From positions 1-64,000 of the forward strand of contig JAXQJY010000022.1 of NCBI GenBank assembly GCA_037042185.1: 64,000 nucleotides of DNA. Direction: 5' to 3'. The notes beneath the pieces are model-generated. The model saw nothing but the letters and a program-made list of their open reading frames with translations, ran no database searches and was not told the DNA's origin. Source of the DNA: Sordariomycetes sp. S80-01Y (lineage: Eukaryota; Ascomycota; Sordariomycetes). Positions 4,142-42,551 of this stretch are shown here, piece after piece; position 1 is the first letter of the stretch; every line of letters begins with the position of its first letter. The position numbers and the translations under genes are program-made.

Positions 4142-4781
4142 CTAGCCCCCGTGCAAGGTCGACACGAAGAGGATGTTATCCCGTGGCTGGATCTCATACG
4201 CCTCTTCACCTTCCAGCTCCCAGTCTGCATCGTTGATGAGGACTAGGATACCCGGTCGTCTAGACACAGAGGTCGGATTAGCTGCTGCGACTGGAATGTT
4301 TATATGCATAGTGGGCGGCACTTCCCACCAAAAAGCGGTGGAGACCGGCCATCCACAAACCAGAGGGCAAGACGACAAGACATAGGGAGAGAAGAGACAA
4401 CGACAAGGAACGTACAGGTGGCCATCCAGCACGAAAAGCTCTTTCCGGGTGTCCTTCATGACATGTTGGCACAGATAGTCAATGAGGTGGGCGATTGTCG
4501 AAGGGCTGCCATCCTTGTCGGTGGAGGGCATGGTCAGCGAATGGTGGCGCTCGTCTGCAAAGAGCATTTCGAGACCGCCGCTGGGAGCCACTCATCAGCT
4601 TATGACAAGTCAAACGCGTATCTCAGGTTGTTCTATGGATTTGAAGACACTTTGAGAACGGGGATGAAGCTTGTTGTGAAGAAGGGGATCAAGGGAGCAC
4701 ACAACGGTACGGAAGAGCTTACGAGAATTCCACCACCACGGGCAGCTTGGCTTCTGGCCCTATATCGCTGGCGTCGCCCAT
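4142..4781 (-). CDS. URM1: Ubiquitin-related modifier Urm1
   Basis: Three exons on the minus strand, 4723-4781, 4416-4580 and 4142-4259, join to a 113-residue protein, the usual Urm1 length. It starts [20 protein letters not shown] and contains [45 protein letters not shown] and the obligatory C-terminal FVSTLHGG. The terminal Gly-Gly is what the E1-like Uba4 adenylates and thiocarboxylates. Urm1 is a beta-grasp protein that acts both as sulfur carrier for 2-thiolation of wobble uridine in tRNA Lys, Glu and Gln and as a protein modifier under oxidative stress. Introns are 142 and 156 bp. The start was chosen because the family's N-terminal strand is encoded in that first exon. It is transcribed away from ELP2, which makes the other half of the same modified nucleotide. 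Confidence 0.95.
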
Positions 4782-5294
4782 GATGAGGACCTTGGAGGAG
4801 CTATCCAAGTGATCGGGGCGGAAGTGGAGAAGGGAGTCAAATGTTGTGAGAGACTTCATGTGTTGGTCGCAAGTTGGGAGTGAAGACGTCGCGTAGAAAT
4901 TCCTAGCGAGGGGCTGCCAGTGCCTTTGAGGTGCCCGCCATGGAGCTCAGGCTCTCGCTCAGGCTCAGGCTATGACCTAAGCGGGGCACTTCAGTCCACC
5001 TGACCAGTTAGGCTCGGGCTCCCCAACATACATTGATAACCTCAAGACAGCAGATGGCCATCATGACGAGGTTTTCAAAATATCAAGCAGTCAAAATGAG
5101 TTGCATGCGCACATGCGTCGAAGTTGAGAAAAACTAAACAATTGATCTGAGACCATGCTAAGGTTTAACGCTCCAGATGATGGTCAACGCCAACAGACAA
5201 GCCCATCTACCTCACGTAGTCCCACCTTTTCTGTCTGGCGCATACCAATTTTCAAGCTTCACTCACTTCCAGCACCCACGGCTCACGGCGCACA
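4782..5294. promoter_or_regulatory. Shared divergent promoter region of URM1 and ELP2
   Basis: A 513-bp gap separates the two start codons, which face away from each other, so one region must serve both promoters. It holds a short direct repeat cluster of the word ctcaggct at about 4947-4970. I see no canonical TATA box at a fixed distance from either start. Co-regulation is an inference from the layout. Confidence 0.5.
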
Positions 5295-7911
5295 ATGTCG
5301 GTTGGAGAAAATTCAGCTACCATGAGCCCACAGTCGATCCCGACGCGATATCTATCTACCGGCGCGAATAGGCAGACTTCGATTGCGGACTGGAGCAGGG
5401 ATGGCCTAGTGGCCTTTGGTGCCGACGTCAACGTCGCGCTCTGGGAGCCCTCAGTAAGTATATAACTGTCACCAGATGAAATTCACAACCTTGGCACTGA
5501 CTGCGAGGGCCCAGGCAGATCCTCCGAGGGGAATCACAAGGTTGTTGAGCGGCCACCAGGATGTTGTCAAAGCAGTCACCTTCCTCCCTAGTCTCGAAGG
5601 TGACACGGCCACATATCTCCTCAGTGGCTCAGACGACAAAAGCATCAGGATATGGAAATCACCAGTCGGTTCTCAGAGTTTTGAGCTCATCTGCAAAGCT
5701 GAAGGCCACCTTGGGCCGATCAACTGCATTTCCGCCATACGAGTACCTGGGGACATCCCGAAGTGGATCGTCGCAACAGGTAGCGCAGATGCTACGATCA
5801 GGATATGGTCCTTCGAAAGTGACAACCTCACGCTGTTGCAGTCTATAAAGACCATGCCAAAGTTTTTTCCCCTAGCCCTAGCACTGGAAAAGCTAGATGA
5901 TGCGGGAAGGCTGTTGATCTTGGCTGCCGCAGGGACAAGGGATACAATCCAAGTACTCACCGCGGAGAACAACCATGACGGATTCCTTAAATTTGATGTT
6001 CAAGCAAACCTCGGCGGGCATGAGAGCTGGATCCGCTCTCTCAGCTTCACGCGAGAATCGAACAACCCCGGTAGCGACCTGCTCCTCGCTTCGGCAAGCC
6101 AGGACAAGTACATCCGCATCTGGCGTGTTCACGAAGGACAGGACCTCCCAGCTTTAGTGAAGGAGGGGGCTGATCCCCTGAGCGGAGCATATCTTCCCGG
6201 GAAATCCCCTTCGAACAAGGCACATAAGCTCAAGACCGCAGGCCGCGACTTCTCTGTGACATTTGAGGCGTTGCTACTAGGCCACGAGGACTGGATCTAC
6301 AGCGCAAAATGGAATGCAAATCGCGACGGCAAGCTACAGCTTCTGTCCACCTCAGCAGACAACTCATTGGCGATATGGGAAGCAGATCCAGGCTCCGGCA
6401 TCTGGGTCAGCACCGTGCGTTTGGGAGAAATTAGCAGAGAGAAGGGTGCAACTACAGCTACGGGCAGCACAGGCGGGTTCTGGACAGGTCTGTGGTCTCC
6501 TGACGGTAATTCGGTTGTCTGCCTAGGCAGAACTGGCAGTTGGCGACGCTGGCAGTACGAGCCTTCAGACGACGCCTGGAAGCCCTGTATCTCCATCTCA
6601 GGTCATACCAAATCCGTCACAGGGATCTCATGGTCACAATATGGGGACTATCTCCTCTCAACGAGCTTGGACCAGACCACAAGATTACATACCACATGGA
6701 CACCTTTGGGCCAGCACACGTGGCATGAAATGTCGCGGCCTCAGATCCACGGCTACGACCTCAACTGCATCGATGCTCTCGGTCCCTCGCAATTCGTCTC
6801 CGGGGCAGACGAGAAGCTCATGCGCGTCTTCAGCGAGCCCAAAGCTGTTGCTTCCATGCTCAACAAGCTCAGTGGAATAGGCGAAGGAGACGTGGAGAAT
6901 ATGCCCGACGCAGCCAACATGCCCGTCTTAGGTCTTTCGAACAAAGCCATCGACACTGTGGACGACGACCAGGAAATCGACCCAGTAGATGACCGAGATC
7001 GCGACGCTATGGATCCAGCATCGATCGTTAAAAAGTCCTATCTCGACATCGATCACCCTCCATTCGAGGAGACGTTGTCTCGTCACACGCTCTGGCCAGA
7101 AACTGAGAAGCTCTACGGGCATGGCTATGAAATCTCATGTCTAGCGGCTAGCCATGATGGCAAGATAATAGCCAGCGCTTGCAAGGCTTCTTCTACCAAC
7201 CACGCCGTCATCCGCCTCTTCGAGACGGAGCGCTGGACGGAGGTCCGACCTCCGCTGACAGCCCACTCCCTGACCGCAACAAGGCTACGCTTCACCCAAG
7301 ATGACAAGTACCTCCTCAGCGTAGGCAGAGATCGCCAATGGGCTGTGTTCGCTCGCACCGAGGAAGACCCGTTGCAATACTCGCTTCTACAGGCGAATCC
7401 CAAAGGACATACGAGGATGATTCTCGACGCGGCGTGGGCGAGCGGGGAGAATACCTTGTTTGCAACGGCGGGGAGAGACAAGCAGGTCAGGATATGGGCT
7501 TCAAAGACCACTGATGAGAGCGGTGAAATGCGGTTTACTCAGGCCGCCTCAATACCTAGCGAGGGCCCGGTCACGGCTGTGGATTTCCTCCCGGGGTCGG
7601 TAGAGGGACGGGATATTCTTGCCATGGGAACCGAAGCTGGAAAGATCAGCCTGCACGCGGTAGGGGATGGTGCGGAGGTCATCCCTCTGCCTGCCATGAA
7701 AGAGTAAGTTCTTCTGTGTGAGTCTGTCAACGCTGGTCACTAGCTAACATGTTCTAGGCTCAACTTGCCAAAGTCTATAATGCAGCTCGCCTGGCGCCCG
7801 CGGAGCAAACAATGTGAGGATGCCAACTCTTATGAGCTGGCAATAGCTGGAGAGGATAGTTCCCTGCGGGTGTTGGCTTTCGACAAGACGTATCTGATGA
7901 GCAGCTCGTAG
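5295..7911 (+). CDS. ELP2: Elongator complex subunit Elp2 (WD40 repeat protein)
   Basis: Three exons, 5295-5453, 5515-7703 and 7758-7911, encode about 833 residues, close to other Elp2 proteins. The start ATG gives MSVGENSATMSP. The first splice joins VALWEPS to ADPPRGITRLLSGHQD, a typical Elp2 N-terminus. Many WD-type repeats follow, with motifs such as LLSGSDDKSIRIWK, IVATGSADATIRIWSF, LLASASQDKYIRIWR, LLSTSADNSLAIWE, YLLSTSLDQTTRLH and LFATAGRDKQVRIWA, forming two beta-propellers. Elp2 is a scaffold of the Elp1-Elp2-Elp3 subcomplex of Elongator, which adds the carboxymethyl group to wobble uridine 34 of tRNAs. An acidic linker around residues 500-540 (DDDQEIDPVDDRDRD) interrupts the propellers, as in homologues. 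An alternative acceptor at 5475 is in frame, but the one at 5514 fits the family better. Confidence 0.93.
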
Positions 7912-8215: not shown

Positions 8216-8673
8216 TCACAGTTCCCTGGCAACTGCTTCAACCGTATCCTCCACCAGCCCTTCCAGTCCAGTCGCTGCGGTGGTTTCCTGCAGAACGCTG
8301 GTACTCATCTCCCTGACCTTGCCCCCCAAGTCGATGTGCTCCCCGTTGATGTAGTACCACGCGCGACCGACCAGGAAAGAGATGTGGTGCGGCAGATAAA
8401 GGACGACGGCGATGAATGTTAGGCTGCAGAGTAGGAAGAAGATGCTGTCTGTGCCAGTCATTAGCGAAATGTTCAAGCCCAAGAGCATCTTCGCACGGAA
8501 GCACCGGCCTCGGCGCCAGAGCGCGCGAGCGCCGCGAGAGATAGAGGAGCTACGAGGAGAAACATACAGATTGCGAGTTTCTCGCCTGGCTGCATCATAT
8601 AAATGCCCACGCTGAGCTCGAAGTGGTACTTCTTGAGGCGAAGCCATTTCTGGAAAGAGGAAAATTGCGCCAT
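8216..8673 (-). CDS. Small subunit of serine palmitoyltransferase-like protein
   Basis: Two exons, 8568-8673 and 8216-8448, encode 112 residues starting MAQFSSFQKWLRLKKYHFEL. The segment YHFELSVGIYMMQPGEKLAI followed by a hydrophobic stretch (about residues 35-58, YSIFFLLCSLTFIAVVLYLP) matches the SPTssu pattern: a short amphipathic part, aromatic residues, a Glu-Lys before one membrane span. Such subunits bind the Lcb1/Lcb2 catalytic pair in the ER membrane and raise the rate or set the acyl-CoA choice of sphingolipid synthesis. The spliced junction (donor gtatgt, acceptor cacag, branch ctaat) is needed to join the two halves of the membrane span. The C-terminal 50 residues after the span are longer than in the animal protein and mildly amphipathic. 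It is divergent from a mitochondrial release factor gene. The family call is from pattern only. Confidence 0.75.
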
Positions 8674-8978: not shown

Positions 8979-9793
8979 ATGATGCTGCGACAATTATTTT
9001 CGCGATGCATGTTACATGATCTTCCCGCAGGCACAGGACTTGCGCCTATTCGGCGCTTCAGCGCAACTGTTGGCCAAGCAAAGAGCGCCCTTCCCCCCAG
9101 GCCAATGCCCCCGCCAGATGATGAGCTTGAGGAGAGTTATCTCAAAGGCAGCGGCCCCGGCGGACAGAAGATCGTAAGTCCTAGCCTATCTCCCGCTATC
9201 TCCCGATTCTAATTCTCCCCGTTCCTGATGAGGCACCTCCAACCATACCGATGATGCTGACCTGCACCCAGAACAAGACCAACTCTGCCGTCCAACTAAA
9301 GCACCTCCCGACCGGCATCGTCGTCAAATCGCAGGCCACTCGCTCGCGCGATCAGAACCGCAAGATAGCGCGCCAGGTTCTGGCCGCGAAGATCGACGAT
9401 CACCTGAACGGACCGCAGTCCCGCAGCGCAATAGTAGCGACCAAGAAGGAGACTAAGAGAGCAAGTAGTGACAAGAAGAAGAGGAGGAAGTACAGGGCCC
9501 TGGAGCAGGAGAAGGCTGGACAGGATGAAGTGGGCCGCGAGGAGAACGAGCGGAGCGACGAGAGTGGTCATGAAGGGCTGAAGGACCAAGACCCTGAAAC
9601 AGAGACAGAGGTTCAGAGCCAGATTCGGCAAGTCGGACTTGAGCTGAAGCCAAACACGAGCGCTGGAAGCATAGAGACGGTCGATGAGAAGACCGAGAAG
9701 CGACTCGCTAAGAAGAAGATGTTACAAGAGAGGGAGGCCAGGAGAAAGGCGAAGGAAGAGAGGGCAAACGCAGCCAAAGCACGTCGGCAGTGA
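8979..9793 (+). CDS. Mitochondrial peptide-chain release factor-like protein (GGQ domain, Rso55/MTRFR type)
   Basis: Exons 8979-9173 and 9272-9793 encode 238 residues. The start is the first of two adjacent ATGs (MMLRQLFSRC). The first 30 residues are basic and free of acids, as expected for a mitochondrial presequence. The core reads LKGSGPGGQKI, then NKTNSAVQLKHLPTGIVVK and QATRSRDQNRKIARQVL, the class I release factor catalytic domain with Gly-Gly-Gln at residues 61-63. There is no codon-recognition domain. The intron sits directly after the GGQKI segment, leaving NKT to the next exon. The C-terminal half is a highly charged Lys/Glu/Arg-rich tail, consistent with rRNA binding in the C12orf65/Rso55 family. 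The predicted role is hydrolysis of peptidyl-tRNA on stalled mitochondrial ribosomes. The distinction from ICT1 rests on lack of codon domains and the long charged tail. Confidence 0.88.
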
Positions 9794-10177
9794 AGGGTTG
9801 CAGCGCAATGACACATTTGCTTACGAGCGACGCTTAAAACGTCGCGACACTGGACGATCTAGCATCATTCATCACATCTTAATTCAACGAATCTAGAACG
9901 AAAAGCAGTAATTGTATATCAACCTCAGCTCTACCTCCTAGGCTCGCATACGCTCAGTCAACAACACAGTGGCCGCCAGCACAAGCACATCCTGCTCAGA
10001 ACAGCAACGCCCCTACCCGTGACCATGTCAAAAACTTTTCGTAAATATGAGACTCGATTCGGAGACGCGCGCTGCCGAGTAGACGTTGCATCGGGCGCCA
10101 CCAGCTCCGTGATCGTCGTGTCGATGTCGATGTCCAGGCGCGTAAGGCGGGAGGGTCGGTTTCGGGGGTGCCATCGC
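9794..10177. other. Convergent gap, 3' ends of release factor and actin
   Basis: Holds the two 3' untranslated regions; no gene or repeat seen. Confidence 0.3.
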
Positions 10178-11818
<1,641 letters not shown>

Positions 11819-14567: not shown

Positions 14568-14720
14568 CGCCCGTGGCCCAAATCGCGGGGCGCCATAAAA
14601 AAGTTCGAGCTGCAGGTAACATCAACGTCACACCCTCAACTCCTTTCACGTCTCCCGCACCCATTTGCAACGGCTGCATATCCTCAACTATCCAAAAACC
14701 ACAAAAAGAAAGTCGCCAAT

Positions 14721-15371
14721 ATGAATGGAGACCCGCGCCTGAACGAACTCCTAAAATGGAGCATCGAAAACTCCGACGCGACCAAGAACGACCCTAATGC
14801 CCCTCCTCCCAAGACCGATCTGACACCCGAAGTCATGGCCGCTCTCATGGGCGGTCCCAGCGAAGCAGACCTCATGAAAGCAAACATGGACATCATCGGC
14901 TGCCAGGACCCTGAGCAAGTATCTCTAGAGGACAAGCTGGTTGCTTTCGACAACTTCGAGCAACTCATTGAATCCCTTGACAACGCGAACAACATTGCCA
15001 ACTTATCCCTCTGGACTCCACTGCTAGACCAACTGAAGGCTGAGGAAAAGGAGTGCCGGAAAATGGCCGCGTGGTGCGTCGGCACTGCGGTGCAGAATAA
15101 CGAGAAGACGCAAGAAAAGTTGCTGGCCATGGGCGGTCTGCCGGCATTGGTCGAGATGGCGCTAAAGGAAGACGAGCATGAGGATGTGAGGAGGAAGGCC
15201 GTGTATGCTTTAAGCAGCGCAGTGAGGAATTATCAGCCCGCCACGGATGCCTTTGTGGATGAGTTGACCAAGGGGGGGGTGCAGACTGGAAAGACCGATG
15301 CTACAGATATGGAGGCTATCGATGCCATCATGCATGGTCTGAGGGAAAAGGCTAAAGGTTCGGGGGCATGA
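14721..15371 (+). CDS. FES1: Hsp70 nucleotide exchange factor Fes1
   Basis: A single exon of 216 residues, the family length. The start at 14721 gives MNGDPRLNELLKWSIENSD, the conserved Fes1 N-terminus (family form: LLKWSIENS). Armadillo-like repeats follow: LVAFDNFEQLIESLDNANNI, LWTPLLDQL, ECRKMAAWCVGTAVQNNEKT, DVRRKAVYALSSAVRNY. Fes1/HspBP1 proteins open the lobe of cytosolic Hsp70 to release ADP and so pace substrate release and delivery of misfolded proteins to degradation. The frame is open for 64 codons above this ATG but that part does not resemble the family. A perfect heat-shock element sits 154 bp upstream. Confidence 0.96.
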   Translation: MNGDPRLNELLKWSIENSDATKNDPNAPPPKTDLTPEVMAALMGGPSEADLMKANMDIIGCQDPEQVSLEDKLVAFDNFEQLIESLDNANNIANLSLWTPLLDQLKAEEKECRKMAAWCVGTAVQNNEKTQEKLLAMGGLPALVEMALKEDEHEDVRRKAVYALSSAVRNYQPATDAFVDELTKGGVQTGKTDATDMEAIDAIMHGLREKAKGSGA

Positions 15372-40931: not shown

Positions 40932-42551
40932 ATGGCTTCCGAGGCCGTTCGCGATGGCTGCTTTGGTATCTATCCTCTTGCAACGCGTGCAGATACTTAG
41001 GAGATTCATGCTAACGACCGCGCAGCCATAAACAAGCCCAAGGGCATGTCCTCTGCACAGGTGGTCCGCGCCTGTCAAGACAGCTTCAGCACCTCCGAAT
41101 TCTTCAAACCCCTGATCAATGAGCAGAAGAAGAAGCTCAACGACCACTCCGCCGGCCAAAAATTTCGCCACCGACGCGCGAAGATCGCCGACAAGGTCAA
41201 GATTGGCCATGGCGGGACTTTGGATCCCTTGGCCACGGGCGTCCTGATCATGGGCATTGGCAGCGCAACAAAGAGCCTGAATCAGTTCCTACATTGCGTC
41301 AAAGTGTACGAGACCACAATGGTATTTGGTGCGAGCACGGACACGTACGATCGCGTCGGGCGAGTTCTCACGAGACGGCCTTACGAGCACATCACGAAGG
41401 AGAAGGTGCAGGAGAAGTTAAAGGGTATGCTGGGGACACAACTCCAAGTCCCGCCCTTGTACTCTGCTTTGAAAATGGAGGGCAAACCACTATACGAATA
41501 CGCCCGCGAGGGCAAGCCCATTCCCCGCGAAATAGTCGGTCGCGAAATCGAGATCAAGGATATCGAGCTGCTGGAATGGTACGAGCCAGGAACGCACAAC
41601 CACCGTTGGCCGACCGAGGAGGCTTCGGAAGCCGAGAGGAGCCTAGCCGAGCAGGTGTGGAAGCTGAAGAAGCACCAAGACGAGAGCGGCAAGTTGACGC
41701 CCGAGGAACGCGCGGAAGAGGACCAGGCGATTGCGGCGCACGAGAGCTTCAAGAGGAAATTCGAGGAGAGGCAGGATCGGTTGGTCAGCGATTCCCCGAC
41801 ACCAAGTAAGCGGGCGAGGCAGAGCAGTGGCGCGCATGTCATGTCGGGTGCACTACCAGAGCCTGAAGAGGCCGAAGACCAGAAGGAGAAGAAGGAGGAG
41901 GCTGGCGAGGAACTTGAGGATCCGACCAAGGGGATGAGCAAGAAACAGCTGAAGAAGCTGCAAAAGAAGGAGAAGCAAAAGTACAAGGCGAACTGGAAGG
42001 ATGACGAGAGCAAGCACAGGACGGATCTGGTGCCAGAGGTACCGGTCGACACGCCACCGCCGTGGGATGGAAAGGGACCGCCTGCTTGCAGGATCAGGAT
42101 CATGGCCTCATCTGGCTTCTACGTAAGGAGTTTCTGCAATGACCTCGGACAGGCACTGGACTCGGTAGCCCTGATGTCGGAGCTGGTCCGCGTCCGTCAA
42201 AGCGACTTCGCCGTTGGCGAGCCAAACTGCCTGGAGCTGTCAGAGATTCAGGCAGAAGAGTCCCAATGGGCGGGCAAGATGGCCAACGCGCTGGCACGAT
42301 GGAACGGAGAACCGACCCCGGACGAGGAGCAGATACACGTCAAGGAGGAGCCATCCAAGTCCGCACCTAGGAGCCCAAGGCACAGCTCTCCGGTGCGCTC
42401 AGGCCCCGCATCGCCAAAGAGACAAGTGAACTACCATTCGGTTTCCCCACAGAAGAGGAAGACGCAGCCATCGAGGTCCCCATCCCCAGCGGCTAAGGTC
42501 CGCCGGGGATCGGCCACGAGCGAGTCGTCGTGGACCGGCATCGCGGACTAG
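40932..42551 (+). CDS. PUS4: tRNA pseudouridine-55 synthase Pus4 (TruB family)
   Basis: Exons 40932-40965 and 41026-42551 encode 519 residues. It starts MASEAVRDGCFAINKPKGMS, the TruB N-terminal motif INKPKGMSS being completed by the splice. The catalytic motif is KIGHGGTLDPLATGVLIMG with the nucleophilic Asp near residue 78. VYETTMVFGASTDTYDRVGR and QVPPLYSALKMEGKPLYEYA follow. The last catalytic-domain segment is ASSGFYVRSFCNDLGQALDS. Pus4 makes pseudouridine 55 in the T-loop of nuclear and mitochondrial tRNAs and modifies some mRNAs. Between residues about 200 and 350 there is a long Lys/Glu-rich insert (including KGMSKKQLKKLQKKEKQKYK), and the last 90 residues are Ser/Pro/Arg-rich. Both add much to the size of bacterial TruB. 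Confidence 0.94.

Follow-up and report, generated by a model that had tools for sequence, protein, structure and literature searches.

Conserved divergent gene pairs in fungi tend to join genes of related function, and fungal gene-order conservation is highest across gaps of 100-1000 nt, where divergent pairs stand out (PMC2871058). The 51 pairs in Table 1 of that study include RAD16/RAD7, SNZ1/SNO1, and the FET/FTH1 iron pair. Divergent promoters have also been described in Aspergillus nidulans for niiA/niaD (1200 bp) and acvA/ipnA (872 bp), the former with a reported shared factor, NirA (PMC7012866). Divergent pairs take up about half of the yeast genome, with gaps of mostly 200-800 bp; a shared region raises the covariance of co-regulated partners, and differently regulated partners leak into each other (PMC4820839).

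Here we describe URM1 and ELP2, which belong to the 2-thio and 5-carboxymethyl arms of wobble-uridine (U34) modification, in the first 64 kb of contig C5 (hereafter, the window) of a 30.87 Mb genome in 16 contigs. Like the Table 1 pairs listed for Pezizomycotina, they stand head to head, close together, and in one pathway, and like niiA/niaD and acvA/ipnA they diverge from one intergenic region. They differ from the Table 1 pairs in that the support for their conservation is indirect, and from niiA/niaD in that they are without a known shared regulator. Neither URM1 nor ELP2 occurs in the main text of PMC2871058, the pair is absent from its Table 1, and the titles and abstract openings listed for the literature on Urm1 with Elp2 or Elongator make no mention of linkage between the two genes. 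What is new here is the pair's membership in the block URM1-ELP2-SPTssu-RF1-ACT1-FES1.

The URM1-ELP2 locus

The features of the pair and of the genes that follow it in the window are as follows.

4142..4781, minus strand: URM1, exons 4781-4723, 4580-4416, and 4259-4142, with GT..AG splicing
4782..4859, minus strand: possible N-terminal extension of Urm1 or 5′ leader, from an in-frame upstream ATG at 4859, adding 26 residues
4782..5294, no strand assigned: inter-ATG stretch, 513 bp, 52% GC, one CCAAT (5245) and one TGACTC core (4834)
5295..7911, plus strand: ELP2, exons 5295-5453, 5515-7703, and 7758-7911, encoding an 833-aa WD40 protein
8216..8673, minus strand: SPTssu-like gene (small subunit of serine palmitoyltransferase-like), PF11779, 4.2e-19
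8979..9793 (start approximate), plus strand: RF-1 domain gene, PF00472, 3.5e-25
9999..11700 (limits approximate), minus strand: actin gene, PF00022, 1.2e-88
14691..15368 (limits approximate), plus strand: FES1, Hsp70 nucleotide exchange factor gene, PF08609, 3.7e-28

Both gene models of the pair are intact. The 113-aa product of URM1 falls in Pfam family PF09138 (Urm1, E 1.3e-34) and carries the C-terminal Gly-Gly (..STLHGG), the two features by which we assign Urm1 membership. Its best match among solved structures, searched with the 113-aa form without the 26-residue extension, is 6yuc, 'Ubiquitin-related modifier 1' (E 1.8e-48), and 7q5n (Urm1) matches at E 1.3e-47. Across the whole genome there is a single Urm1 family match, which is the URM1 of the window. 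The predicted length of M. oryzae Urm1 is 129 aa (PMC6746893), compared with 113 or 139 aa here, and the start calls or the N-terminal lengths therefore differ.

The best solved relatives of the ELP2 product are Elongator complex protein 2 entries (4xfv, E 1.9e-165, and 5m2n, both about 2e-165), and at E <= 1e-60 the matches comprise four distinct solved sequences, every one an Elongator complex protein 2. The alignment with 4xfv spans residues 18-796 of 833, a near full-length similarity. A genome search with exon 2, in which the best candidates were scored, returned no second ELP2 copy at E <= 1e-20, and no relatives of this exon were found in the prokaryotic and viral contig collections scanned, which hold no fungal relatives of the source.

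The two genes are neighbours on opposite strands with their 5′ ends facing, and their ATG-to-ATG gap is 513 bp, or 435 bp if URM1 starts at the upstream ATG (4859); both distances, measured between ATGs, lie below the 1000 bp between 5′ ends that we take as the limit for a divergent pair with a candidate bidirectional promoter. Barring upstream non-coding exons, the transcription starts are closer together than the ATGs. The 513-bp stretch contains no TATA-box match and holds a short GCTCAGGCTC direct repeat at 4945-4968; other repeats there are also short.

The preliminary description had placed URM1 (minus) and ELP2 (plus) head to head with starts 513 bp apart, and our splice models bear out its coordinates, names, and spacing, while Pfam and structure matches uphold the gene identities and their link to the U34 pathway. 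Its remark that PUS4 lies unlinked at 40.9 kb also agrees with our annotation, in which a TruB-family (PUS4-like) gene occupies 41001-42548 on the plus strand. The window order begins with a C2H2 factor (+), URM1 (-), ELP2 (+), the SPTssu-like gene (-), and the RF-1 domain gene (+), continues with actin (-), FES1 (+), an L5-family ribosomal protein (-), a ubiquitin hydrolase (+), a porin (-), and 6-phosphofructo-2-kinase (+), and then runs through a protein kinase, a MIF4G-like protein, the TruB gene, and others. No tRNA genes were found in the window by a search run with the bacterial code, and no Rfam matches at gathering score.

Probable gene order in Magnaporthe and Neurospora

Around the pair the genes run URM1-ELP2-SPTssu-RF1-ACT1-FES1, with actin four genes further on from URM1. 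Locus numbers are taken to follow gene order along the chromosome. The M. oryzae genes are numbered MGG_03978 for URM1 (PMC6746893) and MGG_03982 for actin (PMC5491321, PMC4999194, PMC9694575), a distance of four locus numbers that equals the five-gene spacing URM1-ELP2-SPTssu-RF1-ACT1 seen here. The N. crassa numbers are NCU04172 for FES1 (PMC5117620) and NCU04173 for actin (PMC4256298, PMC4856084); they are consecutive, and the two genes are neighbours here too. Because the spacing of locus numbers matches in both Magnaporthe and Neurospora, the block is probably old, and judging from these published numbers the six genes probably form one block shared at least partly with both. We predict that MGG_03979 is ELP2 in M. 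oryzae. An ELP2 locus of M. oryzae or N. crassa was not found among the literature matches listed, and MGG_03979 is absent from the literature matched by locus numbers near M. oryzae URM1 and actin.

That the two genes might be adjacent in close relatives only, which the preliminary description had named as a result that would speak against its reading, is thus probably not so; the M. oryzae URM1-actin spacing matches ours, with ELP2 itself not seen there.

The naming of MGG_03982 varies among these sources. PMC6746893 labels this gene, four locus numbers from URM1, as beta-tubulin in qPCR, three other papers call it actin, and in PMC4999194 the beta-tubulin of M. oryzae carries a different number.

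U34 genes across the genome and their upstream regions

Besides URM1 and ELP2, searches of the genome located the following U34 genes.

ELP4: contig C13
ELP5: contig C5, at 425 kb
ELP1: contig C6
CTU2: contig C9
ELP3: contig C14
CTU1-like gene: contig C16, below the family cut-off, PP-loop family
KTI12: contig C9; a second, weak match on C6 (E 9e-4) was set aside
UBA4: contig C15, the best of nine ThiF matches, with ThiF plus rhodanese (rhodanese scan at the C15 locus only)

URM1/ELP2 is the only adjacent pair among these ten genes. A search for ELP6 gave no match, but its control gave none either, so that this negative carries no weight. In simulated random gene order with 10,000 genes assumed, any adjacent pair among ten genes arises with a probability of 0.85% and a divergent one with 0.2%, figures uncorrected for the post hoc choice of the pair, and one divergent pair is expected by chance per about 444 ten-gene pathways. 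As the pair was noticed post hoc among very many possible pathways, these probabilities are no strong evidence of design; the 0.85% leaves room for selection having joined URM1 and ELP2.

Divergence itself is ordinary in this genome. Of the 23 neighbour pairs in the window, 8 diverge, 9 converge, and 6 are in tandem, as counted on a hand-made list of 24 genes in which some limits are approximate, four genes are without a named family, and small genes were possibly missed. The smallest divergent gap belongs to SPTssu/RF-1 (about 300 bp), a pair without an evident functional link, followed by URM1/ELP2. Judged by the nearest coding segments, the upstream neighbour is divergent at 8 of 9 U34 loci, with partners that are mostly unrelated: Rpb8/ELP4, DUF3984/ELP1, CTU2/PH-domain gene, ELP3/CoA-ligase gene, L7Ae-family ribosomal protein/CTU1, KTI12/DUF7702 gene, SLX9/UBA4, and URM1/ELP2, ELP5 being the sole exception. 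The layout of URM1/ELP2 alone therefore says little.

At the ELP4 locus (L019:4278-7398, C13), ELP4 (ATG at 4973) diverges from RPB8 (ATG at 4613). A gene for a tRNA splicing endonuclease (PF01974, 2.6e-15) comes next after ELP4 on the same strand, which makes this a second tRNA-processing neighbourhood.

We compared nine U34 promoters, three of them with approximate starts (ELP5, KTI12, and UBA4), with 85 background upstreams for k-mers of 6-8 bases and for eleven fungal or yeast motifs. The best k-mer, AATGAGT (reverse ACTCATT), is present in 4/9 U34 promoters and 0/85 background upstreams (Fisher p 4e-5), its carriers being the upstreams of URM1/ELP2 (window 5094-5101), ELP5 (L020), CTU1 (L024), and KTI12 (L025). 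Label shuffling with the same procedure gave an equal or better k-mer in 28/400 trials, and we therefore did not accept AATGAGT as a U34 regulon motif; it is borderline, a lead rather than a finding. The context of the k-mer is GACTCATT in three of its four occurrences. The TGACTC core occurs in 5/9 U34 promoters and 25% of the background, and TGA[C/G]TCA in 1/9 and 7%, respectively.

Codon coupling was set aside, the signal being weak and the p values uncorrected. Codons read by the modified tRNAs (AAA/CAA/GAA) make up 39/108 AAR/CAR/GAR codons in ELP2 (p 0.02, uncorrected) and, in the same direction, 7/16 in URM1 (p 0.14, uncorrected), relative to a baseline of 248/970 in eleven coding segments of the window.

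Explanations for the pair

URM1/ELP2 is probably an ordinary compact divergent pair inside an old micro-syntenic block. Most likely, two core promoters would share the 513 bp within a single stretch of open chromatin, which would give both genes similar housekeeping transcription with loose co-expression. The pair may be kept by selection, or because short divergent intergenic regions are difficult to break. The fungal conservation pattern and the behaviour of yeast divergent pairs outlined above lead us to expect such a paired-promoter arrangement in a single open stretch, without a dedicated regulator, and we saw no firm sign of a regulator dedicated to wobble-uridine genes. The preliminary wording of one promoter region common to the two arms holds only as a description of 513 bp between two start codons; its further sense, shared control of URM1 and ELP2, is unproven, given that random sets equalled or beat the best k-mer in 28/400 trials and that the divergent layout is ordinary.

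A co-regulating bidirectional promoter, in which a shared element would set the output of URM1 and ELP2, match the 2-thio and 5-carboxymethyl arms, and lead selection to retain the pair, is possible but in our judgement unlikely. AATGAGT upstream of URM1/ELP2, ELP5, CTU1, and KTI12 and nowhere in the background would suit such an element, but 28/400 random sets produced an equally good k-mer. URM1 and ELP2 are alone in being adjacent among the ten located genes, yet the others are scattered over C5, C6, C9, C13, C14, C15, and C16, mostly beside unrelated genes, and the URM1 of budding yeast lies elsewhere, between FAA3 and MAS3 according to the record name of 2ax5. The two arms target one and the same wobble uridine, and certain yeast strains die when both modifications are lost, but Urm1 also modifies proteins (PMC11705076). 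Elp2, for its part, is a single subunit among the six of Elongator, so that matching these two genes alone would leave the arms themselves unmatched. Retention by selection is in keeping with the block's probable age, and with the better conservation of highly co-regulated divergent pairs in yeast, although the same study reports that co-regulation does not require divergence, with 34/44,489 highly co-expressed pairs mentioned (PMC4820839).

The most far-reaching form of this idea, an ancient Pezizomycotina bidirectional promoter that doses both mcm5s2U34 arms, was retained beside actin by selection for a long period of evolution, and belongs to a small U34 regulon, seems to us slightly less likely still. 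Similarly unlikely is that random rearrangement placed two U34 genes together without functional or selective meaning: the post hoc choice of the pair, the expectation of one such pair in some 444 pathways, and the commonness of divergent neighbours here, including seven other U34 loci with mostly unrelated partners, are in keeping with chance, but a block probably reaching Magnaporthe has lasted long, and such retention is less expected without constraint, even if a chance origin as such would be compatible with that long survival.

URM1/ELP2 can plausibly be read as an old divergent pair, belongs to a known kind, and is not surprising on present evidence. If it is conserved and co-expressed, it would offer a natural handle on the transcriptional matching of both wobble-uridine modification arms; if not, it would show, as a caution, how easily neighbours from one pathway are over-read when a genome is compact. 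Where the layout exists, a URM1 deletion that includes the upstream region may also disturb ELP2, and ELP2 expression therefore needs checking behind such phenotypes.
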